IMG/VR virus record: IMGVR_UViG_3300005527_003915
Span: 1-26,351 of that record
Length of the DNA stretch: 26,351 nucleotides
Reading direction: 5' to 3' (one strand)
Origin: a virus
In this document: in pieces, positions 2,790-24,195 of the stretch
Position numbering within the stretch: the stretch's first letter is position 1
Layout: each line of letters starts with the position of its first letter
Position numbers and translations under genes: made by a program
Notes under the pieces: generated by a model
What the model was told of the DNA's origin: nothing
Databases searched by the model: none
What the model saw: only the letters and a program-made list of their open reading frames with translations

Positions 2790-2795
2790 TAAGTA
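2790..2795 (+). promoter_or_regulatory. TAAGTA element 8 bases before the protease start
   Basis: The AT-rich 66-base gap 2738-2803 contains TAAGTA ending 8 bases before the ATG at 2804, with no Shine-Dalgarno sequence. The hexamer resembles the core of the T4 late promoter (TATAAATA) and recurs at a similar distance before other starts in this window. A sigma70-like TATAAT is also visible at 2781-2786, without a convincing -35. This is a candidate promoter for the head gene cassette. Confidence 0.4.
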
Positions 2796-2803
2796 AAATA
2801 TAT

Positions 2804-3475
2804 ATGCCAAATAATGTGTATAAGCTCTTAGTTGAAGAACCAACATACGAAGTAAAATATTTAATAGAAGAACAAAATAGAAATTCGCCATCAAATCTTT
2901 TTATTAAAGGACCGTTTTTAATGGCTAATGAAGCGAATAGAAATAAAAGAGTTTATCCATTAGAAGAAATGGTTAAAGAAGTTTCTCGTTATGATAGAGA
3001 AATGATAAGACAAAATAGAGCTACTGGAGAATTGAACCATCCTCAATCACCAGAAATAAATCTTGAAAGAGCTTGTCATATGGTAACAGAACTCACTCAA
3101 GATGGAAATATTTTTAATGGCAAATCAAAAATTTTATCAACACCAGTTGGACAAGTTGTAAGATCATTAATTATGGATGGTGTTAAATTAGGAGTTTCAT
3201 CAAGAGCTTTAGGTAAACTTGATAAAGATGGATCTTTCAATAGAGTTTCTGATTTTCGTTTAGTTGCAGTTGATGTAGTTGCTGATCCATCCGTTCCTAC
3301 AGCATTTGTTAATGGAATTTTGGAATCTAAACAATGGGTTTTAATGGATAATGGTGAGTTTGAACCTGTATATGAAAATTTTGAAAGAAAAATTTCTAAC
3401 TTACCTAAAATAAATAAAGATCAATATTTAAAAGAACAAATTATTTCTTTTATTAATTCTTTAAAGAGTTTGTAA
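2804..3475 (+). CDS. 21: Prohead core protein protease, T4 gp21-like (peptidase family S80/U9)
   Basis: A 223-residue serine protease that cleaves the prohead core and shell proteins during capsid maturation. The T4 gp21 pattern is clear: GELNHP with the candidate catalytic His79, GVSSRALG with the nucleophile Ser132 or Ser133, and DVVADPS with the conserved Asp157/Asp161. N-terminal strands (FIKGPFLMA) and the NKRVYP segment also match the family. Length is close to the T4 enzyme (about 212 residues). The last 40 or so residues are charged and may be removed by self-cleavage, as in T4. It lies directly upstream of the small core protein, scaffold and capsid genes, the expected order for T4-type heads. 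The portal gene, which usually precedes it, is not here; a hydrolase gene occupies that position. Confidence 0.93.
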   Translation: MPNNVYKLLVEEPTYEVKYLIEEQNRNSPSNLFIKGPFLMANEANRNKRVYPLEEMVKEVSRYDREMIRQNRATGELNHPQSPEINLERACHMVTELTQDGNIFNGKSKILSTPVGQVVRSLIMDGVKLGVSSRALGKLDKDGSFNRVSDFRLVAVDVVADPSVPTAFVNGILESKQWVLMDNGEFEPVYENFERKISNLPKINKDQYLKEQIISFINSLKSL

Positions 3476-3486
3476 TTGTTATTATA

Positions 3487-3498
3487 AGGAGATAAGTA
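3487..3498 (+). promoter_or_regulatory. AGGAG followed by TAAGTA upstream of the small core gene
   Basis: AGGAG at 3487-3491 ends 13 bases before the ATG at 3505, much longer than the usual Shine-Dalgarno spacing. TAAGTA at 3493-3498 lies between them and ends 6 bases before the ATG. The AGGAG may still be used as a ribosome-binding site, or the hexamer may be a late promoter core that produces a nearly leaderless message. Confidence 0.4.
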
Positions 3499-3504
3499 TT
3501 CAAT

Positions 3505-3726
3505 ATGGAAACCAGAAAATTAATTTCTAAATTCGTAACAAATATTTTTGAAAAAAATTATGCTCAAGCTAATTTGCAGCTTGCAGAAATAATTTCAGAA
3601 AAGGTTAAGCAAAAAATACAAAAAACAGTAAGTAAAAAGAAGTGCGATTGTGATTGTGATGATTGCGAAAAAAAAACTTTTAAAAAAAATAAAAAAAATT
3701 TAAAAAACGTATCTAAGAAAGGATAA
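3505..3726 (+). CDS. Small Lys/Cys-rich prohead core component (putative)
   Basis: A 73-residue basic protein between the protease and scaffold genes. The first 40 or so residues look helical, with a pattern (KFVTNIFEKNYAQANLQLAE and SEKVKQKIQK) reminiscent of the N-terminal helix of small head-core proteins in T4-type phages such as gp67/gp68. The second half is almost entirely Lys with a tight cluster, CDCDCDDC, at about residues 47-54. That Cys/Asp cluster could bind metal; this is inference. T4 has its small core proteins just before the protease gene, so the position is similar though not identical. The start is supported by an upstream AGGAG, although its spacing is long. The head-core role is a position-based guess with modest sequence support. 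Confidence 0.6.
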   Translation: METRKLISKFVTNIFEKNYAQANLQLAEIISEKVKQKIQKTVSKKKCDCDCDDCEKKTFKKNKKNLKNVSKKG

Positions 3727-3743
3727 GTTATTATATAAACAAT

Positions 3744-4661
3744 ATGGATCTAAAAGCATTACTAGAAAAAATGGACAAATCTGTTATTAACGAAGAAACC
3801 GCTAAGGAAATAGCAGAAGCGTTTGAAACCGCAGTAAACGAAAAAGTAGAATCAAGACTCGCTTTGCAACTTGAAGGTGCATTATCTAAACAAGATGAAG
3901 ATCATGCTCAAAAACTCACAAAGCTTTTAGAAGCCATTGATGCTGACCACAGCGAAAAATTACAAACAGTGGTTTCTGCTATTAATGAAAATCACACCGC
4001 TAAGTTAGAATCTATTTCTTCTTTTTATAAAAACGCTTTAAATGAAAAAGCAGAAGCATTCAGCAATAAAATTTTAACTGACATTAGCAGCTATTTAGAT
4101 TTATACGTTGAAAAATTAATTCCAACAGAACAATTGCAAGAAGCAGTTGAAAACGTAACTGCTAAAAAGAAATTACAAGAGATTAGAAAAATGGTTGGAA
4201 TTGATTCTTCTTACATCAATGAAGAAATTCAAAACACTCTTACTGAAGGTAAGAAAACAATTGATGATTTAAATCAAAAATTAAGAAAGTCTCTTAATGA
4301 GCAACAACAGCTTCTAGAAAAAGTTCAAACAATAGAAGCATCAATGATTTTAGAAGAGAAAACAAAAAATTTCTCTAAAACTAAAAAAGATTTCATCGTT
4401 AAATTATTAGGTGATAAATCAAAAACCTATATCAATGAAAATTTTAACTACGTAGTTGAGATGTTCGAATCTGGTGAAGATGAGAAAACCAACAATTTAG
4501 CTGAAGAAGCGAAGCAAAAGGCTTTAAGTCTTAATGCCAAGGTTCCAGCTACAAATGTTATTTCCGAATCAAACACCAGCACCGCCAACGAATCCGTTGT
4601 CGGCGGATATCTGAGTGAATTAAAAAAATCAGAAGGGTTTGCTAAAAAAGTAAATTCTTGA
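3744..4661 (+). CDS. 22: Prohead core scaffolding protein, T4 gp22-like
   Basis: A 305-residue, highly charged, Glu/Lys-rich and almost entirely helical protein, slightly longer than T4 gp22 (about 269). Characteristic segments are ISSYLDLYVEKLIPTEQLQE followed by an A-x-K-K-x-L-Q-E-I helix near residues 112-150, and YINENFNYVVEMFES near 230-245; both occur in gp22-type scaffolds. It forms the internal core around which the capsid protein assembles and is degraded by the adjacent protease. Several L/I-x-E triplets (for example LTE and ILEE) could be cleavage sites. A coiled-coil character is likely at about residues 160-210. The last 30 or so codons, from about 4560, become richer in C-ending codons, like the downstream capsid gene. 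There is no clear Shine-Dalgarno sequence at a normal distance from the ATG. Confidence 0.88.
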   Translation: MDLKALLEKMDKSVINEETAKEIAEAFETAVNEKVESRLALQLEGALSKQDEDHAQKLTKLLEAIDADHSEKLQTVVSAINENHTAKLESISSFYKNALNEKAEAFSNKILTDISSYLDLYVEKLIPTEQLQEAVENVTAKKKLQEIRKMVGIDSSYINEEIQNTLTEGKKTIDDLNQKLRKSLNEQQQLLEKVQTIEASMILEEKTKNFSKTKKDFIVKLLGDKSKTYINENFNYVVEMFESGEDEKTNNLAEEAKQKALSLNAKVPATNVISESNTSTANESVVGGYLSELKKSEGFAKKVNS

Positions 4662-4685
4662 ATTTTTTAATTCGTATCTATCCAT

Positions 4686-4691
4686 AGGAGG
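4686..4691 (+). promoter_or_regulatory. Shine-Dalgarno AGGAGG of the capsid gene, with long spacing
   Basis: A full AGGAGG lies upstream of the capsid start, but 15 bases separate it from the ATG at 4707. It is the only six-base Shine-Dalgarno match I see at a gene start in the window, and it precedes the gene expected to be expressed most strongly. No alternative in-frame start codon lies closer. Confidence 0.55.
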
Positions 4692-4706
4692 AAAATAAAC
4701 AAAAAT

Positions 4707-6176
4707 ATGAAAACCGTAAATCCCGCAACAGGCTACATCGACCGCTCTCGCGCACAAATGCTCGTTGAGAAGTGGGCACCAGTCCTCGATTACTCATCCG
4801 ATAAGGTTACAGCAATCGAAGACGAACATGCTCGTTTAACAACAGCTATTCTGATGGAAAACCAAGAACGTTGGTGCATTGAAGAGGCTCAAAACTCTTC
4901 CGGCACAAGTGGCGTATTTGGTAACAACTCTGGTGGTCTTTATAACCCACCCGGTTCAATCACATCAGGTGATAGATATGCTACAGGAGACTCACGCTTA
5001 CCTAAGATTCTTATCCCAATGGTTCGCCGTACTTTCCCTGAGCTTATCACTAACGAGATCGTAGGCGTTCAGCCCATGTCAGGACCAGTCGGACTCGCTT
5101 TTGCTTTACGTTACCGCTATGAAGCAGATAGCCTCGGTGCTAATGGCATCGACGGACACGCCTCTGGTTTAACAACTGTAGGACGCGATGGCGTTGACAG
5201 AAGTTATGCCGAAAGTGGTGGTGTCGGTAAAGAATTAGGCTATCAATACTTGGATACACGATTCACTGGCACTTCTGCTGCCGCTCTCTCCGGACTCGGT
5301 GGAGCAGGCTCAGAATTCCAGATGCTTGATGAGGATAAAGGCGTTGCCGCACTCCTCAACAACTTTGAATTGACCGGAAACATTCCACAGGTTGTTGTTG
5401 AATTCAGCAAAACAGCCGTCGAAGCTGGCACACGCCGCCTCGCCGCTCGCTGGTCCGTTGAATTAGAACAAGATCTTAAGAACATGAACGGACTCGATAT
5501 CGACAACGAACTCACTAATGCTATGTCATATGAGCTTCAAGCCGAAATCGACCGTGAAATGGTCATGAGAATGGTCCAAGTTTGCTTAACAGCAGGTAGT
5601 GGTACAGGATACTCCTTCTGGTACGCTGCATCAGCCGACGCCCGTTGGCTTGGTGAAAGAAACCGTGACTTCTATTCCAAGGTTATTGTCGAAGCTAACC
5701 GCATCGCAATTCGTAACCGCCGTGGTAGTGCTAATTTTATTATCGCTACACCACGCGTTTGCGCAATCCTTGAAATGTTGCCCGAGTTTCAGTGGATGCC
5801 AGTAAACGGTAACGTTAACACCCAACCAACAGGCATTGCCAAAGTTGGTAACTTAGGTGGACGTTTCACTGTTTACCGCGACACTCGTACCGATTCACAG
5901 TATCTTGATGGCAGACGCTCATCCGCTCTGGAGTACGCATTGCTCGGTTACAAAGGCACTGAGTACTATGATACAGGTATTGTATATTGCCCATACATCC
6001 CAGTTATGATTCAACGCACAATTGGTCCTAATGACTTCTCACCAAGAGTTGGTCTTATGACCCGTTATGGAGTTGTCGATCATATCTTTGGCGCAAACTT
6101 ATACTACCATGTAATCCTAGTCAAAGGTCTTGGAACCGCCAATGTCGCTCAAGACAATGGCAGACTCTATCTCTGA
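4707..6176 (+). CDS. 23: Major capsid protein, T4 gp23-like
   Basis: A 489-residue capsid precursor, close to the T4 gp23 length (521). T4-type landmarks include MVRRTFPELITNEIVGVQPM with SGPVGLAFALRYRY near residues 105-135, the helical stretch SVELEQDLKNMNGLDIDNEL near 245-265, and ANFIIATPRVCAILEM in the C-terminal half. The protease motif I-x-E is seen at Ile58-Glu59-Glu60, followed by Ala61, matching in position the gp23 propeptide cleavage. Removal would leave about 429 residues. Base composition differs sharply from neighbours: bases 4741-4800 contain 34 G/C of 60, against 13 of 60 at 9901-9960 in gp6. Arg is mostly CGC/CGT rather than AGA. This fits translational selection on a very highly expressed gene, though transfer from a higher-GC relative is possible. 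It ends in TGA just before a strong terminator. Confidence 0.96.
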   Translation: MKTVNPATGYIDRSRAQMLVEKWAPVLDYSSDKVTAIEDEHARLTTAILMENQERWCIEEAQNSSGTSGVFGNNSGGLYNPPGSITSGDRYATGDSRLPKILIPMVRRTFPELITNEIVGVQPMSGPVGLAFALRYRYEADSLGANGIDGHASGLTTVGRDGVDRSYAESGGVGKELGYQYLDTRFTGTSAAALSGLGGAGSEFQMLDEDKGVAALLNNFELTGNIPQVVVEFSKTAVEAGTRRLAARWSVELEQDLKNMNGLDIDNELTNAMSYELQAEIDREMVMRMVQVCLTAGSGTGYSFWYAASADARWLGERNRDFYSKVIVEANRIAIRNRRGSANFIIATPRVCAILEMLPEFQWMPVNGNVNTQPTGIAKVGNLGGRFTVYRDTRTDSQYLDGRRSSALEYALLGYKGTEYYDTGIVYCPYIPVMIQRTIGPNDFSPRVGLMTRYGVVDHIFGANLYYHVILVKGLGTANVAQDNGRLYL

Positions 6177-6196
6177 TAGCGTAGAAGTACCTTAAC

Positions 6197-6232
6197 AAAA
6201 AACCCATCTTCGAAAGAAGATGGGTTTTTTTT
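6197..6232 (+). terminator. Strong intrinsic, probably bidirectional terminator after the capsid gene
   Basis: A perfect stem AACCCATCTTC/GAAGATGGGTT closed by a GAAA (GNRA) tetraloop at 6212-6215, flanked by an A-run on the left (6197-6202) and a T-run on the right (6225-6232). The T-run terminates plus-strand capsid transcripts. The A-run reads as T on the minus strand, so it can also terminate the convergent minus-strand gene that ends at 6250. It is the best hairpin terminator in the window. Confidence 0.93.
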
Positions 6233-6249
6233 ATACTTTTATAAAAAAA

Positions 6250-6747
6250 TTATAAAATTTGAGAATCCATTATTTGGATTTTCTCTTTTTTACTAGCTGG
6301 TTTTTCAAACATTTTTTGCATTATTTCATCTCTTGTAGCTATAACTATATTATTAGTTTGTGGCACCAGTTTAGACAGATGAGAATTTGATTCAAGTTCA
6401 AGTTTTTTAATCTCTAAATTAGATTTAGTTTGTTTATTTTGTAAATTAATCTTATTTAACTGGTCTAAAGCTTTTGAAGCTGAGTTTATAAGCTGTGATA
6501 AAGCTGCTATTTCTTTTGGATCGCTTCCAGCTAGTATATTATCTCTAAATGATTGTATAGCACCTAATGTGGATTCTACTAATTCTCCAGATTTTTTATA
6601 TACATATTCATTTACGTTTTCATCCGTTAATTTTGTCGTATCGGGTTGAATATTATCTTTATGTTGATTACTAATAGACTGTGGTGCAATAGAATCGCCT
6701 TTTAATTGATCTATGATATCGTCTATTTCTGAATTATCGTTTGACAT
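6250..6747 (-). CDS. Helical protein, candidate small terminase subunit (T4 gp16-like)
   Basis: A 165-residue protein on the minus strand. The first 50 residues are polar and probably disordered. Residues of about 50-125 form helices with a heptad-like pattern, including GAIQSFRDNILAG and SASKALDQLNKINLQNKQ. The C-terminus is basic and polar. Size (T4 gp16 is 164 residues) and layout (disordered N-terminus, central coiled coil, basic tail) match T4-type small terminases. The central helices, with an A-x-x-L-I-x-S-A-S-K-A-L-x-x-L pattern, resemble those of marine T4-type small terminases as I remember them. If correct, it would form the ring that recognises DNA for packaging. It stands alone without the large terminase, which weakens the call; any small coiled-coil virion protein is an alternative. 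The start at 6747 is ATG with TAAATA 9 bases upstream. Confidence 0.45.
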   Translation of the reverse strand: MSNDNSEIDDIIDQLKGDSIAPQSISNQHKDNIQPDTTKLTDENVNEYVYKKSGELVESTLGAIQSFRDNILAGSDPKEIAALSQLINSASKALDQLNKINLQNKQTKSNLEIKKLELESNSHLSKLVPQTNNIVIATRDEIMQKMFEKPASKKEKIQIMDSQIL

Positions 6748-6775
6748 ATATAAATATATTTACTAAGTATATCAT
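6748..6775. promoter_or_regulatory. Divergent promoter region between the minus-strand helical gene and the 57-aa gene
   Basis: Only 28 bases separate two divergent ATGs. On the plus strand there is a full T4 late-promoter consensus TATAAATA (6749-6756) and TAAGTA (6764-6769) ending 6 bases before the ATG at 6776. On the minus strand TAAATA (6762-6757) ends 9 bases before the ATG at 6747. No Shine-Dalgarno sequence is present for either gene. Probably two back-to-back late promoters. Confidence 0.5.
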
Positions 6776-6949
6776 ATGACACAAGTAAATATCGAAAACA
6801 TTGGTTCTTTTTTCATCCCAAACGAAAAAATTAATGAACTTGAAGGTTGGTTGGTTGATAATGATGGGATAAAAACAAAAACTAAAGAAGAACAATTAAA
6901 AGAAGTAATAAATAGAGATTTTGATGGTTCTGAACTTTTAATAGGTTAA
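6776..6949 (+). CDS. 57-aa protein of unknown function
   Basis: A short ORF running from ATG at 6776 to TAA at 6947-6949. The protein is acidic and begins MTQVNIENIGSFF, with a likely helix at about residues 33-46 (TKTKEEQLKEVIN) and a C-terminus GSELLIG. It fills the gap between the divergent promoter region and the clamp-loader gene, leaving only about 40 bases for the clamp-loader promoter. Support for coding comes from the TAAGTA element 6 bases upstream, the good fit to the available space, and a natural protein composition. I do not recognise a family. It has no Cys, no membrane segment and no signal peptide. Confidence 0.55.
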   Translation: MTQVNIENIGSFFIPNEKINELEGWLVDNDGIKTKTKEEQLKEVINRDFDGSELLIG

Positions 6950-6952
6950 TCC

Positions 6953-6990
6953 TTGACTTTAATTCGTCATGCCTTATCCTTTATATAAGG
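6953..6990 (+). promoter_or_regulatory. Candidate sigma70-type promoter and start-site hairpin of the clamp-loader gene
   Basis: TTGACT at 6953-6958, then 16 bases, then TATCCT at 6975-6980 gives a plausible host-type -35/-10 pair. The inverted repeat CCTTAT (6972-6977) and ATAAGG (6985-6990) with a 7-base loop ends one base before the ATG at 6992. It could fold over the start codon or act as an operator. No TAAATA/TAAGTA motif is present, consistent with early rather than late expression of a replication gene. Confidence 0.35.
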
Positions 6991-6991
6991 T

Positions 6992-7927
6992 ATGAACAAG
7001 TATAATTCTCTTTGGGTTGAGAAATATAGACCTAAAAAGCTTGATGATCTTCTCTTATCGGAAGACAGTAAGACTTTTTTCTCTAATATTTCGGATACTA
7101 CACCGCATCTATTGTTTTATGGTAGACCCGGAACTGGAAAAACATCATTAGCTAAAATTATTGTTAATGACATACTAAAATGCCAGTACTTATATATAAA
7201 TGCATCGGATGAAAATGGAGTAGACACAATAAGAAATAAGGTTGTAACGTTCGCCCAAACGAAATCTTTAGACGGCAAGAAGAAAGTTATTATATTAGAC
7301 GAGTTTTGCGGTACAACTCCAGAAGCGCAGAGGATATTAAGAAACGTAATGGAAGAGTATTCTAGTAATGTGCGTTTCGTTTTAACTGCAAATTCAATAG
7401 ATAGGATAGTAGAGCCTATACAATCCAGATGTTGTTTGTTTAATTTACAACCAAATACAAATGATATTATAAAAAGATGTGTTCATATTCTGAAAAGTGA
7501 AAATATAACAGTATCAGAAGATCAAAAACCTAAATTATTAAGACATATAGAGTATTGTTATCCAGATTTGAGAAGAATTATAAACGACATTCAAAAGTTT
7601 TCTATATCTGGAAATCTTTTAATATCTGAAAATAATGAATTAAAAGATTTTACTAAACAAATATTTGATTTATTAATATCTAAAACTAATTCACTTATAA
7701 TAAGGAAAAAAATAATAGAAGAAGAAAAAAGATTTAATGCTGATTATCAATTACTTTTATCTCAACTGTTTGATTTATTCTATAATGATCAAAATCAAAA
7801 CGATATGACTAAAAAGAATATCTTAATGGATATAGGTGAATACATGTATAGAGATGTATCAGTTTTAGATAAAGAAATAAACTTTTTTTGTTGTATTATT
7901 TCCTTAGAAAAAATTCTAAAATCTTAA
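6992..7927 (+). CDS. 44: Sliding-clamp loader ATPase subunit, T4 gp44-like (RFC small subunit family)
   Basis: A 311-residue AAA+ ATPase, close to T4 gp44 (319). It opens with WVEKYRPKKLDDL, the typical RFC/gp44 N-terminus. Walker A is GRPGTGKT at residues 44-51, Walker B is VIILDE at 99-104, sensor 1 is TANS at 132-135, and the arginine-finger SRC motif is at 145-147. The C-terminal 150 residues are the helical collar domain. With its partner (gp62-type) it loads the sliding clamp (gp45-type) onto primed DNA during phage replication. Neither partner is in the window, so this gene is separated from its usual neighbours and sits among late structural genes. Its stop overlaps the stop of the convergent minus-strand gene by three bases, leaving no room for a terminator. 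Confidence 0.95.
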   Translation: MNKYNSLWVEKYRPKKLDDLLLSEDSKTFFSNISDTTPHLLFYGRPGTGKTSLAKIIVNDILKCQYLYINASDENGVDTIRNKVVTFAQTKSLDGKKKVIILDEFCGTTPEAQRILRNVMEEYSSNVRFVLTANSIDRIVEPIQSRCCLFNLQPNTNDIIKRCVHILKSENITVSEDQKPKLLRHIEYCYPDLRRIINDIQKFSISGNLLISENNELKDFTKQIFDLLISKTNSLIIRKKIIEEEKRFNADYQLLLSQLFDLFYNDQNQNDMTKKNILMDIGEYMYRDVSVLDKEINFFCCIISLEKILKS

Positions 7928-8445
7928 ATTTTAGTATTTGTTTTTGGTAAACTATTATCTTTTGGTTGATTTCCTAAAGATGTATCTACTTTTACTTCTT
8001 CTGGTTTTTTGTAAACAGGTATTTTTTCGTATTTATTTGGAATACCTTGAACCGGAGGTAAGTTAGCACCAAAATTTAATACTTCAACGTATTCATGATT
8101 GCCCGGAACTGTAAATTCAGCAAGTTCTGTTGGTACTCTTACAGATCTTGGGTCCATTCTTAAGACTAAATAAACATCACCAGTACCTTCATTAGCGTTA
8201 GCGTCTTTAACGTTTTGTTCTGAACCACTAGATGCTACTCTTTTAATAAAGAAAAAATAATCAGAAGTGATTAAATCGCTTAAAAAATTGAAAAATTCAG
8301 TATCTCTACCATAATGTTGTTTACAGTAGGGAGAATTTAAGAATGCTTTTTTAATTCTAATCGGAGATCCTTCTCTGAATCCACCATTAGAATAGTGTGC
8401 AAATGCTGTTTCTAAAAGAGTGTTGAACTTGTTAAACTTTGACAT
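7924..8445 (-). CDS. Unrecognised phage protein, 173 aa, beside the baseplate genes
   Basis: Minus-strand gene whose best start is the ATG at 8445 (MSKFNKFNTLLE). A longer reading to 8469 would need a TTG start and would run to within one base of the divergent gp25 start. The first 65 residues look helical, with an aromatic core LITSDYFFFIKR. Residues of about 75-130 are likely beta with VYLVLRMDPRS and the motif NLPPVQGIPNKYE. The last 35 residues are Lys/Pro-rich and disordered. No signal peptide, membrane segment or enzyme motif is visible. Its own TAAATA motif sits 11 bases upstream, matching late genes in the window, so it is probably a structural or assembly protein. Location next to gp25 and gp6 hints at a tail or baseplate role, but the opposite strand makes this weak. 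Confidence 0.75.
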   Translation of the reverse strand: MSKFNKFNTLLETAFAHYSNGGFREGSPIRIKKAFLNSPYCKQHYGRDTEFFNFLSDLITSDYFFFIKRVASSGSEQNVKDANANEGTGDVYLVLRMDPRSVRVPTELAEFTVPGNHEYVEVLNFGANLPPVQGIPNKYEKIPVYKKPEEVKVDTSLGNQPKDNSLPKTNTKI

Positions 8446-8470
8446 AATACTATAAGTATTTACACTCAAA
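8446..8470. promoter_or_regulatory. Divergent promoter with a palindrome between the minus-strand unknown gene and gp25
   Basis: A 25-base gap separates two divergent ATGs. It holds a perfect inverted repeat AATACT-ATA-AGTATT (8446-8460). The plus strand carries TAAGTA (8453-8458) ending 12 bases before the gp25 start. The minus strand carries TAAATA (8462-8457) ending 11 bases before the ATG at 8445. The two motif copies overlap, so one site may serve both directions. No Shine-Dalgarno sequence is seen on the plus side. Confidence 0.5.
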
Positions 8471-8977: not shown

Positions 8978-8991
8978 GATAATTATTAATA

Positions 8992-10791: not shown

Positions 10792-10794
10792 GAT

Positions 10795-14166: not shown

Positions 14167-14183
14167 TAAATTAATTTTTTACT

Positions 14184-14190
14184 CTAAATA
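14184..14190 (+). promoter_or_regulatory. CTAAATA element 8 bases before the giant tail gene
   Basis: CTAAATA in the 32-base gap ends 8 bases before the ATG at 14199, and no Shine-Dalgarno sequence is present. It resembles T4-type late promoter cores. A loose inverted repeat TAGAGT (14159-14164)/ACTCTA (14181-14186) overlaps it. Confidence 0.4.
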
Positions 14191-14198
14191 TATTATAT

Positions 14199-17100
14199 AT
14201 GACAAATAATGGGTTTTCATTTGAAAGAAGTGGTTCTTGGCCATCCGAATCTTACAAAATAACTCCTGATTTTTTTAATACCGTAAAAATTGGAATTTTA
14301 CCGTTAGAACTCCAAGCATTTAACATTTTTAGATATTTTGAAAGCCCAACAGTAGGTTTAAATAAACTATTAACCGAATATAACATTCCTAATTTTACAT
14401 ATACAAATGGTGATTATCAATTAGATGATGATTTTTATTATGTATTAAGTTCATCATCTGCAACTCCAACATTTTTTACATGGAATCCTAATAATTTAAG
14501 AGATATAGATTCTGGATATATATTTAATTTTTTCTTTATTAAAGATAAAAAAATAGCATCTCCTTTATACGATACTAACAATCCAAATATGTATTTTGCA
14601 TATTCGATATATCCAACAAAATTAATATTACAGCCAACAAACGTAACTAAAATTTCTGATACTAATTATACATTAACAACACAAACTAAATTAGTAAGTT
14701 CTTCTATAATTCAATACTACGATACTTTTGTTGAAGATTTGGCTTACACCGATTCTTATTTAAAAAGAAGTACACCCCCAACATCATTTGAATCTCTTCC
14801 AGCTACAGGAACTTTAATATATACCTTAAGTTCTTTCAAGACAGTAAGAGAAAAAGAATTAATAAAATTTTCAGAAAGATATAATCCTTATACTTATTAT
14901 TATATATTAGATGAATTTTATAATAGAAGAGGTTTAAGAATAAGACCGGAATCTACGTTTATAACATATAATACATTATTTTATGGTGATGTAGATGTAA
15001 ACAAATATGAATTAAGAGCTTTGGGTCAATCATTACCAGAATTTAACCCATTAATCAAAAAAGATTTGAGATCCAGTTTCATTTTAAATCAAAACATAAC
15101 AAACAATTTAGGAACTCAAACTTTTCAACTATTACAAAGTAGTATAAGTGCGGCTTACGCTCTTGAAAACGTTTTAAATTCTATACAAACAGTATTTTGG
15201 AATTTAACTACTGGTTATATTAAATATGAATCTAAAACACTAACAGATTGGAATGGAAATATAGTTCCTTTAGTAAGTGGATATCCAGATTCTAGTTTAG
15301 CGGTTAGTTATATCGTAGAAGGTGATAAATTTTTCAATGATGTTTCTGTTGGAACGGGAAATAATTCAACATCAATAACAACAAACACATCTAAAACTTG
15401 GAATTTAACTTATCCTCCTCATTATTATACTTTCAAAGTTTCATATTCTAACAATTCAACGTTTAGTGGTGATACCGCAACGTTAAATTTTTATTTATCA
15501 ACGGGAATAACTGAAAAATATAAATCATCTATTCAACCAGTATCTTCAGAATCACTAACAACAAACTCGGTAAGCTATTCTGCTTATAAATTAAAAACAA
15601 AAATAACAAGTGATTATAATTTTTTAGATTTAAATTTGTCTACATATGCAAATAATGATTTTATATCATTTAAATGTTTATATGTGGATGATATAATAAC
15701 TAAAACTTTATCATGTTTTTATGGTCCAAATTCAAATGTTTATTATGATTTAGTAAATTCTCCTTATGTTCCAGCTGCTTCGGCTGAAAATTTATTAATA
15801 ACATATCCAAAAGAAATTTTTGGACAATTAAATCTTAATTTTAAAGCAACTTTAAGCTCAGTATGTACAACATTAGATTCTAAATCACTAGTAAGTTTAG
15901 TTTTTTCCGAAGGTAAAACCAGTCAAGTTGTTGGGTTTCCGATTGAAATCGAATTAAGATCAGAAACTGATAATCAAATAATAGTAAGTTGCGCTAAATT
16001 ATCATCAACTTCTGTTTTACCATGCAGAGATTTAACAAATTCTTTTATAAGATGGTCTTATACTCCAACTAATTTACCAGTTACAATAGCGGGAGTTGAT
16101 TATAATCAATTTACACCAACATTAACATCAAATGTTAGTTCAGATTTAATTCCAAATATTTTTTCTAATGGTCAAATAATACCATTTAACGAATTTACTA
16201 ATACGGTTATGTTTTCGGGGTACGGTAGCGATATCCTAACTATAAATTTGGAATCTTTTAAATATGAAGAAGTAGCTAAATTATTAACCAATCCAATATA
16301 TTTTGATTTTTTTAAAGATAAAACTTTTGTTTTATATAATTCAGATTTTTCAAATATCGAAAAAACAACTAATTTTTCAGTTTCATCGAAAGTATTATAT
16401 GGAAAATCTACTTTTGATATTCCTTCTGATACACCAATATATTGGAAATGGACATATAATGGAAATTCAAATCCATCAACAATGCCAATAACTGCATTTA
16501 AAACTGACGGTTCAGTGTATGAATATGGTAGTGTATTATCATCTGATGATATATCAACTATTTCCTTTAAGGTTTATTTAGAAGATAATGATAATTCATT
16601 TGATTCAAATGAGCTTCAAATTAACTTATTTTCAAATAATAAAGATTATCTTGTCAGTGGAGAATTATTTTTATATCTAAATGATTATCCAGATAAATCA
16701 ATATTCAATGTTGATTTTAAAACGGTTTATTCTGCATATACCGGAGTAGATATTTCTAATACAAGAGATGAAAAGTATGTAATTACAAGACCAAAAGAAG
16801 ACGTAAATAATTTTAGATTTATATCAAATACTGATATTTTACCAACACTTTCGGCTAAATCTATAACGTGGTTTATATCTTCTGATAATGGATATTTTTC
16901 ATCTTTAAATTATTTAACAAATAAAAATATATCATTTACAATACCACAAAATTCAACTAAAACTACTATAACTTTAAGCGCAGAAAAAGCTACTATCAAA
17001 GGTTGGTCTATAGCTAATAACTTGGCAACTACATTAACTATTTTTACGGTTCCTTCTGCTACATTGAGTAAAAAAATTAACTTTTTATTATATCCACCTT

Positions 17101-20048
17101 ATACTTGGTTACAAAACAATAGTGGGTTAATTACATTATTAAATAATACAAATTATACATTAGCTAATGCCCCAACAGCATACTATGGCAAATTATCAAA
17201 CAGTCAAAACTTTTTAGTATCATCTTCTGATAGATCATTTACGGATTATGAATATTATTACAGCGATTCAAAAATATTTTTAACTTTGCTTGATAGTTTT
17301 TCTGGTAGTTTAGAAATACCATATCACCAACAATTATATAGCAATGTAGGAACGCCAATATTTTTAAGTGCTTATAATGAAAAATTTCCAAAATACAATG
17401 GAATTAATTATGTCGGATTAAGTTCTGGAAACGTATTATACAATGGAACATTTAATATAACAACAAGCACATTACCTTTCAGTTCTGTTTATTTAAATGG
17501 AAGAGATAATTTTTTACAATCACCTAAAATAGTTCCATATGATAGCTTGTCCATGACATTTTCATCAAATGTAACTTCTATAAATTTAGACGAAAATATT
17601 TTCATAACAACTAGTCAATCATTTTTCCCAATTAACAGTTCTCAAAGCCCAATACGAGGAGTTGAAGAATTTTTAAATGGAAATGTTGTATATAAACTAT
17701 CATGTAAATACTGGGAAGCTACAACTGACGTTTCTCCTATTAGTGGTATATATGATCTTTTTATATTAAGAATAGGAGATCCATCAATACCATTAAACAT
17801 AAAAGATAATGAAATCACAACTTTATTATTAAGTGCATATGCAACTACTCCTGTTACTATACCAGAAACCACGTTCAGAAATGTAACAGCAACATATACA
17901 GGAGAAACAAAATTATGGAGTGATATATCTCAAAATTTATCAATATCAAATCCTATAACTTTAATAGCTTATAGCACTAGTGTTAAACCTAAATTTTTCG
18001 TATCTTCTTATTATTCTGTAACCGGAGAAGATATATGTTTTCAATTTGAAACTCCAGAAAATTCATATAACTATAAAATAACTGCATATGATTTATATTT
18101 TGGGGATGGATTATCAGCTAGAATAGTAGACGATCAAAAATATTATAAAACATACTTAAAAGAAGGTGCGTTTATGTTATCTTATAATGTTTATTATAAC
18201 GACGGAACTACCAATTTCTTTAAATCTGAAACACCAATTATTATATATAATAATTGGCCGGTATATGAGCAACAAAAAATAAGATTATTGAGTGAAATAA
18301 CTTTAAATTTTGGAGATGAAAGTGAAGATACTTACGATTTAGATCAAATTAAAATACAACCAAATGAATGGGGCGATGCTGATATTTTCAATACAGCAAT
18401 ATCCAGACTTCAAGATAATTTAGATTATTTGATTTACAACTCCCAAACCATGAATACTGATACTCCAACATTATTTTATGGTTGGTTGGGAAATAATAGT
18501 AGTGAAAAAGCATCCGGTATAACTTGGCATACATTAAATTATAATAAAGATTATATCAATAGTTTAAATAATGCAATTTCATTGGAAAACGAAGAAGACC
18601 AAACGTTAAAAAATAAATTTTCATATTTTAATGATTTAAAAGATTTAGTGGTTTTAAAAGATAAAATATATACTATAGACGGAACTAATTTTAGAGCTTT
18701 TTCTTCTGATAAAATACCACAAGAAATAGAATTTGAAAATATTAACGAAATAAATTCTCTTTTAATAAATCCAATATCTATAGATTGTGATAGTACTGGA
18801 GAAAACATTTATATATGTGATACTTTAAAAAATAAAGTATATAAATTAAACGTAGATTTTGAAACATATCCAGCGCAGATTAACATACAATTGAGTATAG
18901 GAAATTTAGGACAATTAGAAGATACAAATAAATTCCATTCTCCAACTGAAGTAGTAACAGAAAATGATATTGTTTTTATTTTAGATTATAATAATAGATG
19001 TGTAAAACAATATACAAAAGACTTAAACTGGATGTTCACTTATTATAGCGAAGATTTTGAAAACGATCAACCAATAAATATAACAGTTCATCCAAAAACA
19101 CTTTTAGTGTATGTATTAACAGAAAGTTATAAAGTATATATATTTGATTATTTTAAATCTGATGTTTTTGAAACATTAGACGTTTCTTTTATAAAAGATG
19201 GTTATCCATTGATTAAAATCTTTTTTGATGAATCTGGAGATTTCTTTTATATTTTAAATTCTAAAAATCTATACAAATACACAACGGCAGGAACATTTAT
19301 AAATCAAGTTATTATACCAAATGATAATAATTTATTTTATTCTTCTGCAAAATATTCTAATGATAGATCTATAGTATTATGTACAACTCACAGCATATTA
19401 AAATTTCATGATATTTTAAGTATATTTAAAATTGGAGATGGATTACCATATAAATATTGGACAAGAGATCAATTATTATTATCAATTGATGAATTTCCAG
19501 ATGATATTACATACAATAGATCTTTAAATAGATTAGCTCAAAATATTAAATCTTTCAGAGACACTTTAGATTCTAGATTTGTAATAGTAACCGAACAAAC
19601 CGATGCTGGTACTATAGAATATTTTTCATTATATCCAGTTTCATACCAAAACAGACCTGTTTTTTCTGAAAAAATAGAAAATGAAAGTTTGGGAGTTGCT
19701 GTTAATGAATTTCATACCCCACAAGTTTTTAACAGAGAGTTAGAAGAATTATATGATGCTCTTTTAATACTAAAAGATTTCTTAAATATAAAAGACGTAA
19801 GAATATTAAATACTACTCAAACATTAGACAATATCAATACTGGTTGTGATGGAGTTTTTTGTTGGTCTTGGAAAGCTATGTCATGTTACAACTTAAGTTT
19901 GCCAGTAATAAGAATTTGCAACATTAATCCGATAACATATTCCGAACTTGAAAGTAAATACCCGAGAGAGTATATTTACGCTTCAACGAATACATATGGA
20001 TCTGCTACATCTAAATGCTGTGATACTCAAGAATCGCCGATAAAATAA
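14199..20048 (+). CDS. Giant tail/baseplate protein (1949 aa) with PKD-like domain and C-terminal propeller
   Basis: The largest gene of the window, a Ser/Thr/Asn/Tyr-rich protein of 1949 residues made mostly of beta-domains. A PKD-like module with YFGDGLSARI lies near residue 1300. A helical stretch TAISRLQDNLDYLIYNSQTM follows near 1405-1425. Six propeller blades lie at about 1485-1735, including KIYTIDG, NIYICDT, IVFILDY, LVYVLTE, FFYILNS and SIVLCTT. The C-terminal 200 residues are helical with a Cys-containing end (GCDGVFCWSW, then a terminal CC pair). It shares this PKD plus propeller design with the upstream protein, in the same operon. It has no signal peptide or membrane segment. It is most likely a large baseplate-attached or tail-fibre-like protein; a tape measure is unlikely because it is not helical. 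The exact role is unknown. Confidence 0.75.
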   Translation: MTNNGFSFERSGSWPSESYKITPDFFNTVKIGILPLELQAFNIFRYFESPTVGLNKLLTEYNIPNFTYTNGDYQLDDDFYYVLSSSSATPTFFTWNPNNLRDIDSGYIFNFFFIKDKKIASPLYDTNNPNMYFAYSIYPTKLILQPTNVTKISDTNYTLTTQTKLVSSSIIQYYDTFVEDLAYTDSYLKRSTPPTSFESLPATGTLIYTLSSFKTVREKELIKFSERYNPYTYYYILDEFYNRRGLRIRPESTFITYNTLFYGDVDVNKYELRALGQSLPEFNPLIKKDLRSSFILNQNITNNLGTQTFQLLQSSISAAYALENVLNSIQTVFWNLTTGYIKYESKTLTDWNGNIVPLVSGYPDSSLAVSYIVEGDKFFNDVSVGTGNNSTSITTNTSKTWNLTYPPHYYTFKVSYSNNSTFSGDTATLNFYLSTGITEKYKSSIQPVSSESLTTNSVSYSAYKLKTKITSDYNFLDLNLSTYANNDFISFKCLYVDDIITKTLSCFYGPNSNVYYDLVNSPYVPAASAENLLITYPKEIFGQLNLNFKATLSSVCTTLDSKSLVSLVFSEGKTSQVVGFPIEIELRSETDNQIIVSCAKLSSTSVLPCRDLTNSFIRWSYTPTNLPVTIAGVDYNQFTPTLTSNVSSDLIPNIFSNGQIIPFNEFTNTVMFSGYGSDILTINLESFKYEEVAKLLTNPIYFDFFKDKTFVLYNSDFSNIEKTTNFSVSSKVLYGKSTFDIPSDTPIYWKWTYNGNSNPSTMPITAFKTDGSVYEYGSVLSSDDISTISFKVYLEDNDNSFDSNELQINLFSNNKDYLVSGELFLYLNDYPDKSIFNVDFKTVYSAYTGVDISNTRDEKYVITRPKEDVNNFRFISNTDILPTLSAKSITWFISSDNGYFSSLNYLTNKNISFTIPQNSTKTTITLSAEKATIKGWSIANNLATTLTIFTVPSATLSKKINFLLYPPYTWLQNNSGLITLLNNTNYTLANAPTAYYGKLSNSQNFLVSSSDRSFTDYEYYYSDSKIFLTLLDSFSGSLEIPYHQQLYSNVGTPIFLSAYNEKFPKYNGINYVGLSSGNVLYNGTFNITTSTLPFSSVYLNGRDNFLQSPKIVPYDSLSMTFSSNVTSINLDENIFITTSQSFFPINSSQSPIRGVEEFLNGNVVYKLSCKYWEATTDVSPISGIYDLFILRIGDPSIPLNIKDNEITTLLLSAYATTPVTIPETTFRNVTATYTGETKLWSDISQNLSISNPITLIAYSTSVKPKFFVSSYYSVTGEDICFQFETPENSYNYKITAYDLYFGDGLSARIVDDQKYYKTYLKEGAFMLSYNVYYNDGTTNFFKSETPIIIYNNWPVYEQQKIRLLSEITLNFGDESEDTYDLDQIKIQPNEWGDADIFNTAISRLQDNLDYLIYNSQTMNTDTPTLFYGWLGNNSSEKASGITWHTLNYNKDYINSLNNAISLENEEDQTLKNKFSYFNDLKDLVVLKDKIYTIDGTNFRAFSSDKIPQEIEFENINEINSLLINPISIDCDSTGENIYICDTLKNKVYKLNVDFETYPAQINIQLSIGNLGQLEDTNKFHSPTEVVTENDIVFILDYNNRCVKQYTKDLNWMFTYYSEDFENDQPINITVHPKTLLVYVLTESYKVYIFDYFKSDVFETLDVSFIKDGYPLIKIFFDESGDFFYILNSKNLYKYTTAGTFINQVIIPNDNNLFYSSAKYSNDRSIVLCTTHSILKFHDILSIFKIGDGLPYKYWTRDQLLLSIDEFPDDITYNRSLNRLAQNIKSFRDTLDSRFVIVTEQTDAGTIEYFSLYPVSYQNRPVFSEKIENESLGVAVNEFHTPQVFNRELEELYDALLILKDFLNIKDVRILNTTQTLDNINTGCDGVFCWSWKAMSCYNLSLPVIRICNINPITYSELESKYPREYIYASTNTYGSATSKCCDTQESPIK

Positions 20049-20141
20049 GTAAAAATAAGATAAATAATTATAATCAATTCAAAAATAGTGACCAATAAAA
20101 TTGGTTCTATGGTGAAATACCCATTGGCTTGAGAAAAGATT
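20049..20141 (+). promoter_or_regulatory. 93-base intergenic region before the repeat fibre
   Basis: The longest gap in the tail operon. TAAGTA (20046-20051, overlapping the stop codon) and TAAATA (20061-20066) lie near its left end, 75 or more bases before the ATG at 20142. A short hairpin ACCAAT-AAA-ATTGGT spans 20091-20105. An ATG at 20109 opens only seven codons. It may hold a late promoter with a real leader, unlike other genes here. Confidence 0.3.
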
Positions 20142-22343
20142 ATGAGCAATAGATTCCATTCAAAATACCACAGATCAAACCACCACACTTACGGAAGTTC
20201 AGTCGGACAAGACGGAACCCCAACAAATCCAGATGCGGGACACGACCCAATAGCATCTCCAGAGCATCCATTTAAAGGAGATTTTTGCTTAAGAGGAGGT
20301 TTAAGCGCATCAGTACCTAGCGCAAGTGCTTATGCTGGAGCATTCATGGGAAATTTACTACTAACCGGAAATTTTGTTATATTTGATAATGTAATAAATG
20401 CAAATTTAGCAACAAGATCTGTCGGTATTAATGTTAATCCAACATCATATCAACCATTTGATTTAATAGTAAATGATAAATTAAAAGTTATAGATAATAT
20501 AACTACATACAGTTTAAGTGCAACTACTATCGGTACAGATTATTTAAGAGTTAATTTAAAAACAGATTCAGTAAATTATCCAGTTAATTTTGTAAACTAT
20601 AATAACAATTATTCATACTTTGCTGTAGATAAAGACGGAAGAGTTGGAGTAAATTTAGGACAAACACCAAATTTCAATTCTAATAATTTTAAAGTTATAG
20701 GAAGCACCCTTTTTGACGTTGGGGCAACTTTATTTGATGTTAGAGGAAATACATATATAAATCATAATGATATTTATATAACAAAAATAGGAACAAATTC
20801 AAATGCCGGAAAGACATCATTAGGCAGAGACGAATTTGTAACATTAAGCGAACAAAAAGTTTTAAGATCTGATGGAGATGTAGTTTTTTCTAAAAACTTT
20901 TATCTTTCTGGTAATTCTGTTTTTGGAGATTCTTCAACCGCAGATACTTCAATTTTTACATCTAGAATAGCTTCGGATTTTATTCCAAATACAGTAAACA
21001 GAAATTTAGGAACAACTTCTTTACCTTGGAATACATTATATTTTAAAACATTAAGCGGAACGGATGGAACATTTTCAAATAATTTATTTGTTAGTGGAAA
21101 CACCCAGTTAGGAAATACAACTAATAATGAAGTTAGAATTTTATCTAAAATATCATCCGATTTAGTTCCAAATACAGTAAACAGAAATTTAGGAACAACT
21201 TCTTTACCTTGGAATACACTATATTTTAATTCATTGAGTGGTTATAATGGAGTATTTACTAACAACTTAAACGTAACTGGAAATTTAACAGTAAATGGAA
21301 ATACTAATATTGGAAATAATAGTAGTGATTTATTATATATTAACTCAAACGTTAATACAAACATTATACCAAATGATACCAATAAAAATTTAGGATCATC
21401 TTCTTTACCTTGGAATACTTTATATTTAGGAGACTTGAGATGTTCAAATAATTATATATCAAATAATTTAAAAATTGATGGAAATACTAATATAGGATCG
21501 GATTCTTCCGATTTAGTCTCTATAACAGCTAGAGTTTCATCAGATATTATACCTTATGATGCAAATAGACAATTAGGATCTCCATTAACATCTTGGTTTA
21601 ATATCTATGTTAAAAATACAATCGGTGAAACCGCCACATACTCCGGAGATTTAAATGTTTATGGTTCTTGCACACTAGGGGATTCACAAACAGATACTGT
21701 TTATATAAACTCTAAAATTGCAACTAATTTAATACCGGATAATACTTCTAGACAATTAGGAAGCCCAACTCTTCAATGGGATTATGTTTATTTTAAAACT
21801 TTAAATGCAATAGACGGAACATTTACTGGACAAATTCTAGCACCAAATCAAACCGCATCTTCCGCATCATCAGTTTTAACTAGATCTCTTGCTGACGCTC
21901 GATATGGTTCTTTTATAGATTCATTTTTAAATGCAGATTCGGGATCAAATGCAACCACAACGTTTGCCACAGTTCAAAATATATCATTAGAAGCTAATTC
22001 AACATATATAATTAGCTCTGTAACATGTGTATCTACTAGTACTACTGGGGGTTCTAAATTACAATTTGCGTATACTGGAACTACATCGAGAGTTAATATA
22101 ACCGATACGTTTAGTTCCAGCGCGGCTACAACAACAAATAGACTTAATTTCTTAGGTGCAACATTACCAGCAAATGTAAGCTCTATGACAAGTACAGCAG
22201 CAGCAAATCACACTTATTCTAGAGACACTTTAATAACTACTAGCACTGCGGGAAATTTTTCAGTTCAAATTGCTTTAAATTCAGCAGCAGGATTGTCTCA
22301 AGCTAAAGCAGGATCATTTATTTCAGCTAGAAAGCTATTATAA
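20142..22343 (+). CDS. Repeat-containing tail fibre protein with C-terminal beta (jelly-roll-like) domain
   Basis: A 733-residue fibre. The N-terminus (KYHRSNHHTYG, then DAGHDPIASPEHPFKGDF) is His/Pro-rich and probably the attachment end. Residues of about 265-560 hold five repeats of 60-65 residues, each with a centre of the form I-P-x-x-x-x-R-x-L-G-x-x-x-x-x-W-x-x-x-Y, starting near residues 281, 342, 407, 467 and 528. The segment between centres carries a G-N-T-x-x-G-N/D motif. Such repeats build elongated trimeric beta-structures. The last 130 or so residues, from about 600, are Ser/Thr/Ala-rich strands that resemble C-terminal receptor-binding jelly-roll domains of phage fibres. It precedes a second fibre by 25 bases. 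The role in host recognition is inferred from architecture. Confidence 0.85.
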   Translation: MSNRFHSKYHRSNHHTYGSSVGQDGTPTNPDAGHDPIASPEHPFKGDFCLRGGLSASVPSASAYAGAFMGNLLLTGNFVIFDNVINANLATRSVGINVNPTSYQPFDLIVNDKLKVIDNITTYSLSATTIGTDYLRVNLKTDSVNYPVNFVNYNNNYSYFAVDKDGRVGVNLGQTPNFNSNNFKVIGSTLFDVGATLFDVRGNTYINHNDIYITKIGTNSNAGKTSLGRDEFVTLSEQKVLRSDGDVVFSKNFYLSGNSVFGDSSTADTSIFTSRIASDFIPNTVNRNLGTTSLPWNTLYFKTLSGTDGTFSNNLFVSGNTQLGNTTNNEVRILSKISSDLVPNTVNRNLGTTSLPWNTLYFNSLSGYNGVFTNNLNVTGNLTVNGNTNIGNNSSDLLYINSNVNTNIIPNDTNKNLGSSSLPWNTLYLGDLRCSNNYISNNLKIDGNTNIGSDSSDLVSITARVSSDIIPYDANRQLGSPLTSWFNIYVKNTIGETATYSGDLNVYGSCTLGDSQTDTVYINSKIATNLIPDNTSRQLGSPTLQWDYVYFKTLNAIDGTFTGQILAPNQTASSASSVLTRSLADARYGSFIDSFLNADSGSNATTTFATVQNISLEANSTYIISSVTCVSTSTTGGSKLQFAYTGTTSRVNITDTFSSSAATTTNRLNFLGATLPANVSSMTSTAAANHTYSRDTLITTSTAGNFSVQIALNSAAGLSQAKAGSFISARKLL
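20983..21046 (+). repeat. Copy 1 of a 64-base near-identical direct repeat in the fibre gene
   Basis: Encodes the centre of fibre repeat 1. It matches 21166-21229 with a single visible difference (TTA versus CTA, both Leu). The copies are 183 bases apart, exactly 61 codons, so the reading frame is kept. The other three repeats are much less alike at the DNA level. Confidence 0.9.
21166..21229 (+). repeat. Copy 2 of the 64-base direct repeat in the fibre gene
   Basis: Encodes the centre of fibre repeat 2 and differs from 20983-21046 at one synonymous position. The high identity suggests recent duplication or gene conversion and could allow recombination that removes or adds a 61-residue unit. 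Confidence 0.9.
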
Positions 22344-22349
22344 TCAACA

Positions 22350-22356
22350 CTAAATA
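22350..22356 (+). promoter_or_regulatory. CTAAATA element 12 bases before the S74 fibre gene
   Basis: CTAAATA in the 25-base gap ends 12 bases before the ATG at 22369. Only a weak AAAGAA purine stretch sits directly before the ATG. It is a candidate late promoter core of the same type as others in the window. Confidence 0.4.
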
Positions 22357-22368
22357 ATATATAAAGAA

Positions 22369-24195
22369 ATGGCTACAACACCAACTACAATAAGATCTAA
22401 AAGAATAACAGAATTAACATCATCTGCTACACTATTAGGCGATGAACTTTTCCCAATTTTACAAGAAGGAAGTACAAAAAAAGCAAGCATGTTAACCGTA
22501 ACGGATTACATGAAAAAACAAGATTTTTCTACTTGGGTTTATGGTAATAGTGCAACAACAATGGATTCAACTAGTTGGGTTAATAGTAACTCCGCACAAA
22601 CAATAAATTCTACAACATGGGTTAATTCAAATAGTTCAAGAGAAACTACAGCTACTGATTATGTTGAATTATGTGGAAATGCTTGGAGTTCGGTTTATAA
22701 CTTCGTTTTAAATAATATCGTAACAGCTGGTATAGCAGATTTATACATTGGAGAAAGTTCAGTAACCACAACTAAAATAGCAGACAGATCGATAACTCCA
22801 GTAAAACTAACTTTAGGTGGACCATCTTGGGATTATAGTGCGGGATCTTTCACGGTTACTGCGAGAGAAGTTTTATTGAATCCATATAATAATACAGATT
22901 TAAACTTAAGATTAAACCCAAATAATACTTCTTATAAAAGTAATATAGTTCATAGAGGAACAGGATCTTTAAATATTAATAGCGTAAACACCGGAGAAAT
23001 AATAGTACAAACTTTACAAGATGGAGATATTGTTTTTAGAACAAACGATATCGAAAGAATGAGAATAGATGGAACTACAGGCTTAATCGATATGCTTTAT
23101 GGGTTAAGAATATCTCCTACTGGAAAATTAATAGTAGGTGATATTGAAGCAAATAGTTTAAAGGTTAATGAAAACATTAACATGACTCAAGGTTCTCTAT
23201 CAACAATAAGAATTCAAGACGGAGCTAATATTGATTTTACGAACTCTTCAAATCAAACTACATATTCAATGTTTGCTACTGGAAATAATAGTTTTGCTAT
23301 TTTTGATAAATCCACAAATCAAATTAGAATATTTATTGATGATGATGGAAATGTTGGAATGGGTAATACTGCGCCAAGATCTAAATTGGATGTAACCGGA
23401 GATGTTAATACCAATACTTTAACATTAAATAGACAAAATACGGTAGCCGAAGGAGGACAAATAAACTTTAATAAGGCAATAGATAATTCCGTTTCTTATT
23501 ATGCTGATGTTTATGGAAATACATCAACTCCATATTTTAGAATAGTTGATACTAACACCGGAGGAGGAGTTGAAAGATTTATATTAGATCCAAACGGAAG
23601 AGTTGGAATAGGAACATATCCATCTTATAGATTACATGTTGCTGGAGACGCTAAAATAAACAGCAATTTAACTGTTGGTGGTGGAGTTTCTAGTGTTGGT
23701 AATACATTAATCCAAAATGGAAATATATCTCTTTCTAATAACTATGGAATAAAAATAAATGATTCCACAGGTTCAATTAAAGATATTTTATTTTTATCAA
23801 ATGCTAATGTAACTTATTTACAAGGTAATGGAATTTATTTTAGAACTTTAAATGGTTCGAATTTAGGTTATTTTGATGCTACAGGAAACTTCACTGCGAT
23901 AGGAGACGTAGCTGGCTTTTCGGATGAAAGATTAAAAACAAACGTTAAAACTATAGAAAATGCGTTAGAAAAAGTTAATGCGTTAAGAGGTGTAGAATTT
24001 GACAGAACAGATATTAACACTAAAGGAATAGGTGTTATAGCTCAAGAAGTTGAAAAGGTTTTACCGGATGTAGTTTCTGAAAATAAAGATGGTTATAAAT
24101 CTGTTGCTTATGGAAACATGGTTGGTGTTTTAATAGAAGCCGTAAAGGAATTAACAAAAGAAGTAGAATATTTAAAAAGCAAAATAAATAACTAA
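22369..24195 (+). CDS. Tail fibre/spike with C-terminal S74 self-cleaving chaperone domain
   Basis: A 608-residue fibre. The N-terminus (KRITELTSSATLLGDELFPI, then KKASML) is the attachment-type segment seen in many phage fibres. Residues of about 55-90 hold three short repeats around TWV-x-x-N-S. The middle has two fibre motifs of the G-x-V-G-x-G-x-x-x-P type (GNVGMGNTAPRSKLDV near 327 and GRVGIGTYPSYRLHV near 411). The C-terminus is a peptidase S74 intramolecular chaperone: FSDERLKTNV places Ser518 and Lys523 five residues apart, as in the known Ser/Lys dyad of endosialidase-type chaperones. GIGVIAQEVEKVLPD follows, and then a final coiled coil. Self-cleavage next to Ser518 would release about 90 residues after trimer folding. 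This identifies it as a trimeric receptor-binding fibre or spike; no depolymerase motif is evident. Confidence 0.92.
   Translation: MATTPTTIRSKRITELTSSATLLGDELFPILQEGSTKKASMLTVTDYMKKQDFSTWVYGNSATTMDSTSWVNSNSAQTINSTTWVNSNSSRETTATDYVELCGNAWSSVYNFVLNNIVTAGIADLYIGESSVTTTKIADRSITPVKLTLGGPSWDYSAGSFTVTAREVLLNPYNNTDLNLRLNPNNTSYKSNIVHRGTGSLNINSVNTGEIIVQTLQDGDIVFRTNDIERMRIDGTTGLIDMLYGLRISPTGKLIVGDIEANSLKVNENINMTQGSLSTIRIQDGANIDFTNSSNQTTYSMFATGNNSFAIFDKSTNQIRIFIDDDGNVGMGNTAPRSKLDVTGDVNTNTLTLNRQNTVAEGGQINFNKAIDNSVSYYADVYGNTSTPYFRIVDTNTGGGVERFILDPNGRVGIGTYPSYRLHVAGDAKINSNLTVGGGVSSVGNTLIQNGNISLSNNYGIKINDSTGSIKDILFLSNANVTYLQGNGIYFRTLNGSNLGYFDATGNFTAIGDVAGFSDERLKTNVKTIENALEKVNALRGVEFDRTDINTKGIGVIAQEVEKVLPDVVSENKDGYKSVAYGNMVGVLIEAVKELTKEVEYLKSKINN
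24185..24190 (+). promoter_or_regulatory. TAAATA element 10 bases before the 260-aa gene
   Basis: TAAATA lies inside the last codons of the S74 fibre gene and ends 10 bases before the ATG at 24201. No Shine-Dalgarno sequence is visible. It may be an internal late promoter; part of the match is constrained by the coding sequence. Confidence 0.35.

Follow-up and report, generated by a model that had tools for sequence, protein, structure and literature searches.

What does it mean that a phage gene so often has the hexamer TAARTA (R = A or G) only a few bases before its start codon? The question was raised by the window, the 26,351-nt IMG/VR virus record IMGVR_UViG_3300005527_003915 analysed here over its whole length (positions 1 to 26,351; 70% A+T). 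An initial annotation had listed ten such sites and suggested that they are late promoters giving nearly leaderless mRNAs. Patterns in the DNA of the window and its relatives make it likely, with a probability of about 0.8 in our estimate, that TAARTA marks T4-type late promoters which are read by gp55 and lie about 20 bp nearer to the gene, so that late mRNAs would have no leader or next to none.

Results

The window belongs to the genome of a T4-superfamily phage, as evident from gp23, gp21, gp25, gp6 and gp44 homologues identified by Pfam and PHROG profiles. The gp21 prohead protease gene (Pfam Peptidase_S77; plus strand, ATG 2804) is followed by a probable gp22 scaffold gene (3744; Pfam/PHROG profiles) and, by the same profiles, the gp23 major capsid gene (4707). 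The gp44 clamp loader gene (phrog_168; plus strand, ATG 6992), and the gp25 baseplate wedge (plus strand, ATG 8471) and gp6 (8992) genes, both from Pfam/PHROG profiles, lie further downstream. No listed isolate has a capsid protein more than about 34% identical to that of the window. A capsid-protein scan of genome contigs gave only two distant T4-like loci, both in marine MAGs, and contigs related to the window are abundant in IMG/VR. One of these records, G001 (71 kb), is 100% identical to the window over bases 723-26351 and extends another 45 kb past the window end. Relatives were analysed in two samples, the first of six of the longer related records, each fetched whole, and the second of 74 further related contigs.

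All ten sites of the initial annotation were found, at the distances it had given. On the plus strand, TAAGTA cores are located at 2790..2795 before gp21 (gap 8) and at 3493..3498 before ORF 3505-3726 (gap 6), for which leaders of about 3 nt and 0-1 nt, respectively, are predicted. A divergent pair follows, with TAAATA at 6757..6762 on the minus strand before ORF 6747-6250 (gap 9) and TAAGTA at 6764..6769 on the plus strand before ORF 6776-6949 (gap 6); their leaders are predicted to measure about 4 nt and 0-1 nt, respectively. Two further cores overlap on opposite strands, namely TAAATA at 8457..8462 (minus) before ORF 8445-7924 (gap 11) and TAAGTA at 8453..8458 (plus), contained in TATAAGTA, before gp25 (gap 12). 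The near-palindrome TAAGTATTTA (8453-8462) would thereby represent overlapping divergent late promoters serving both strands. TAARTA is also present upstream of gp25 in G003, G005 and G006, and 16 of the 57 divergent gaps in records G001-G006 have a positioned TAARTA facing each way. The remaining plus-strand cores are all TAAATA, at 14185..14190 before the giant ORF 14199-20048 (gap 8, again predicting about 3 nt of leader), at 22351..22356 before ORF 22369-24195 (gap 12), at 24185..24190 before ORF 24201-24983 (gap 10) and at 1241..1246 before ATG 1250. The last of these is the weakest candidate, with a gap of 3 and an overlap with the upstream TAA stop (1245-1247). Upstream coding DNA is overlapped at two window sites, 1250 and 24201, the latter core lying inside the end of the preceding ORF. 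Leaders of about 1-7 nt are predicted for the window, looser than the 0-1 nt that the clade as a whole appears to prefer.

That far fewer sites would be expected by chance was borne out. TAARTA is found 5-13 bases upstream of 9 of the 19 starts, against a mean of 0.8 in dinucleotide shuffles of the same 40-bp upstreams, and none of 5000 shuffles reached 9. TAARTA is depleted across the window as a whole (97 vs 124 expected), and the pile-up at starts is therefore not an effect of base composition. A genome-wide search, which had been proposed as a check, was performed on the related genomes and showed TAARTA to be enriched at fixed distance relative to matched shuffles. In the six related records it precedes 57/231, 57/222, 61/240, 24/62, 22/113 and 26/90 genes, where 3.7-12.7 were expected and where the simple gene caller will have set some start codons wrongly. 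The enrichment is 4-6 fold per record and falls largely within the last ~15 bases before the ATG. When all 6-mers were ranked across the six larger related records, TAAATA came out on top (205 vs 43 expected) and TAAGTA third. This exhaustive ranking was adopted in place of an unsupervised EM motif search with a free positional prior, which recovered the motif in only 2/6 records and otherwise yielded weak AT-rich patterns. The 74 further contigs have TAARTA at 231/679 genes against 37 expected; related contigs share ancestry, and counts across them are thus statistically non-independent. When only those genes of the six larger records are counted that are preceded by at least 21 nt of non-coding DNA, 155/483 still have TAARTA (26 expected), which rules out stop-codon effects.

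The distance to the start codon is sharply distributed, with a peak at gaps 5-6 (233/478 sites) and, in the 74 further contigs, at exactly 5 (69 sites). For the other half or so, the gap is 7-14 or 3-4, and many leaders would thus be short, not absent. In T4 the late element spans -13 to -6 (PMC1524935), a geometry that at gap 5 sets the predicted +1 on the A of the ATG. The base at -1 is a pyrimidine in 90% of the 117 gap-5 sites, compared to 62% in genes lacking the motif. A pyrimidine is usual just before a purine start, and this bias may be read as an indirect, initiator-like signature. The case for near-leaderless transcripts has thus become stronger than initially put, in that the preferred gap of 5-6 would place +1 at the ATG if T4 geometry applies. 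The lack of Shine-Dalgarno sequences first noted at the window genes agrees with the counts, since SD-like words stay at background where TAARTA lies at 3-8 (15 vs 12.9 expected; 7 vs 4.5 in the second set), and it is the remaining genes that have them in excess.

These observations suggest a simple course of events. Host RNA polymerase with a phage gp55-type sigma would read TAARTA, gp55 recognising it with the spacing known from T4, and late-gene transcripts would begin with the A of the AUG itself at gap 5, and often at gap 6, or else a few bases ahead of it, the exact +1 being a prediction. A leader that is nearly absent would leave no room for a Shine-Dalgarno sequence, and ribosomes would be expected to engage the AUG directly at or near the 5′ end of the mRNA.

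The distribution among gene classes, which were assigned by T4 homologues and not by expression data, is in line with a late promoter. TAARTA precedes 28/55 late (structural) but 2/34 early (replication) genes (p=7e-6), and the difference persists where 15 nt or more of upstream space is available (25/36 late vs 1/12 early, p=4e-4). The motif is found at 41% of divergent starts and in 65% of 15-29-nt spacers, and among overlapping genes it is at background (5% vs 3% expected). The clamp-loader gene (6992) is without TAARTA, as had been noted, and has instead a sigma70-like box, TTGACT-N16-TATCCT, at 6953..6980 on the plus strand, 11 nt before its ATG, as a candidate early promoter. The major capsid gene is an exception to the rule. 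Its leader, the gp22-gp23 spacer (4662..4706, plus strand), contains AGGAGG and no TAARTA; in the gp23 leaders of relatives TAARTA is absent in 75/79 and AGGAG present in 24/79. In all probability gp23 is transcribed from a promoter further upstream and translated from an ordinary ribosome site. The idea of a conserved hairpin before gp23 was dropped: such a hairpin is strong in some relatives, as in contig L005 (z -5.1), and weak or absent in the window.

One may ask whether TAARTA is instead a translation-initiation element, an A-rich, Kozak-like sequence suited to an SD-poor host and located within normally leadered mRNAs. The scarcity of SD words would fit, as would the position of the motif in the ribosome-covered zone, and non-SD hosts such as Flavobacterium are known to use A at -3 and -6 (PMC6847099). 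Such a signal should, however, serve early, overlapping and operon-internal genes as well, and those are without TAARTA. The distance to the start codon ranges from 3 to 14, the hexamer agrees with the T4 late promoter in phages that encode gp55, and at other genes this position is taken by another hexamer, TATAAT preceded by TTGA. We therefore regard this explanation as improbable.

The late-promoter reading gains further from the gp55 search that had also been proposed. A gp55-type late sigma is encoded in 7/9 related records (E 1e-24 to 1e-29), the window contig being too short to show it and the window's own contigs, G000 and G001, not including the gp55 region. The gene order uvsW-gp55-gp47 is that of S-PM2 and other T4-likes, and in alignment gp55 of G003 is 29-36% identical to gp55 of T4, S-PM2 and HTVC008M. 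Fixed-distance enrichment, gp55 in the relatives and the separation of late from early genes together support TAARTA as a late promoter. In two gp55 homologues (L134:1294-1929 and L136:1195-1929) the N-terminus is extended by a long acidic stretch and the C-terminal end of T4 gp55 has no recognisable counterpart, terminal differences that may bear on clamp coupling. A gp33 search gave 0/9 records and was also silent in controls, and gp45 was found in 1/9, so that a T4-like co-activator set and clamp-coupled activation would be hypothetical in this clade. The ribosomal protein bS21 is encoded in G002, G003 and G004, and comparison of these proteins with solved ribosomes indicated no phylum. Lake phages bearing bS21 have been assigned to Bacteroidetes (PMC9723584). 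For Bacteroidetes host promoters (TANNTTTG), enrichment was confined to G002 and G005 and weak at best, and a Bacteroidetes host is not claimed.

A second promoter class, TTGA-N17-20-TATAAT, precedes other genes in the same position as TAARTA and with a preferred gap of 6 (G004, and also G002, G003 and G006); in G004, 13/24 TATAAT sites lie 6 nt from the ATG. Both elements resemble -10 boxes positioned such that transcription would begin at the ATG, and the clear -35 box is confined to the TTGA class. TTGA is located upstream of 22/62 TATAAT sites (3.9 expected) vs 31/247 TAARTA sites (13.5 expected), so that TAARTA sites mostly lack a -35 and a small TTGA excess is left. In G003 the TTGA class is clustered at 82-92 kb together with polymerase, uvsX and helicase genes. 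Clustering of the two classes along the genome is significant in G003 and G006, not in G002, G004 and G005.

The shared geometry of the two classes, and the weak TTGA excess at TAARTA sites, could be taken to mean that the host main sigma reads TAARTA as a variant -10 box, with the genes leaderless and gp55 uninvolved. Three observations speak against it: the gene sets of TAARTA and TTGA/TATAAT are nearly disjoint, TAARTA favours structural genes while the TTGA class of G003 groups with replication genes, and a conserved gp55 needs a target. We judge this to be slightly less probable still than a ribosomal signal.

Returning to gp55-read late promoters, the placement of TTGA/TATAAT implies that leaderlessness is not special to late genes, and going by position many non-late genes should be leaderless too. 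One may speculate more widely on a branch of the T4 superfamily in which early (TTGA/TATAAT) and late (TAARTA) genes are mainly leaderless, gp55 works without a recognisable gp33, bS21 aids 5′-terminal AUGs and the capsid gene, often with an SD-like leader, is the exception. In its entirety we hold this to be rather unlikely, though better placed than either of the two alternatives above.

Discussion

Late transcription in T4 is a textbook system, and T4 late leaders carry a ribosome-binding site. The clade shares with the T4 gp55/gp33/gp45 system the TAAATA core, its association with virion genes, the lack of a strong -35 and the gp55-type sigma. Position is what sets the two apart: in T4, run through the same pipeline, the late element lies mostly 24-28 nt before the ATG with an SD leader between, and in the clade preferentially 5-6 nt before it with no leader predicted. 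The clade consensus, approximately [A/C]TAARTA[T/A], matches the inner six bases of TATAAATA in T4, but TAAGTA is common, conservation does not extend to the outer TA of TATAAATA and gp33 was not detected. Outer bases are relaxed in late promoters of other T4-likes as well (PMC1524935). Aeromonas phage Aeh1, whose gp55 is divergent, has CTAAATA (PMC1524935), with C for the outer A as at many clade sites. The late promoter of cyanophage S-PM2, NATAAATA (PMC2984593), has the same core, a relaxed outer base and a gp55, as in the clade, whereas its gaps are mostly 19-37 nt in the same pipeline. A spacing of 20-29 is retained in the single-cell-derived marine T4-like phages AG-345-L05 and -F15.

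An artefact of AT-rich sequence, TAA stops and start-site choice, to which the 70% A+T and the overlap of some motifs with upstream stops (1250) might lend credence, is refuted by dinucleotide shuffles of the same upstreams that fall short by 4-fold or more, by the signal in wholly non-coding upstreams, by depletion across the window and by the other distances that T4 and cyanophage controls yield in the same pipeline.

The nearest parallel in culture is Pelagibacter phage HTVC008M, in which TAAATA stands exactly 5 nt before 8/98 starts, often as TATAAATAGT; genes with this arrangement begin at 6280, 7562, 19456, 31132 and 49760 of NC_020484, among others. Like the clade relatives it has gp55 and bS21 genes; it differs in being distantly related by capsid protein and still rich in SD-like words (19 vs 7.2 expected). 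A published search for late promoters in pelagimyophage genomes was unsuccessful (PMC7029224), which promoters abutting the start codon may explain. The first 50 kb of the Far-T4 isolate RM378 displayed no comparable promoter pattern, and Far-T4 membership was dropped as an explanation. Outside the phages, leaderless mRNAs are known in bacteria, e.g. Mycobacterium and Deinococcus (PMC3160421, PMC4633059). There too the -10 box abuts the start codon, but it is read by a host sigma, where in the clade mainly the phage late sigma would be involved. No description of leaderless late transcription in T4-like phages was found in the part of the literature that was searched.

The same T4 promoter thus seems to have shifted as far as the start codon in many uncultured phages and in HTVC008M, which offers a cultivable system for the prediction. 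If true, late virion synthesis would depend on leaderless translation. The spacing of TAARTA would also provide a simple rule for locating late genes and their true start codons in such genomes.

Two minor features of the window may be added. A DUF285 (BspA-like) repeat protein (104-1060) is followed by an alpha/beta-hydrolase (Peptidase_S9-like) protein (1250-2737), a pair that is perhaps tail-fibre or receptor-related. Comparison with G001 further revealed a 99-bp internal repeat, 89% identical, at 20960-21058 and 21143-21241 within ORF 20142-22343.
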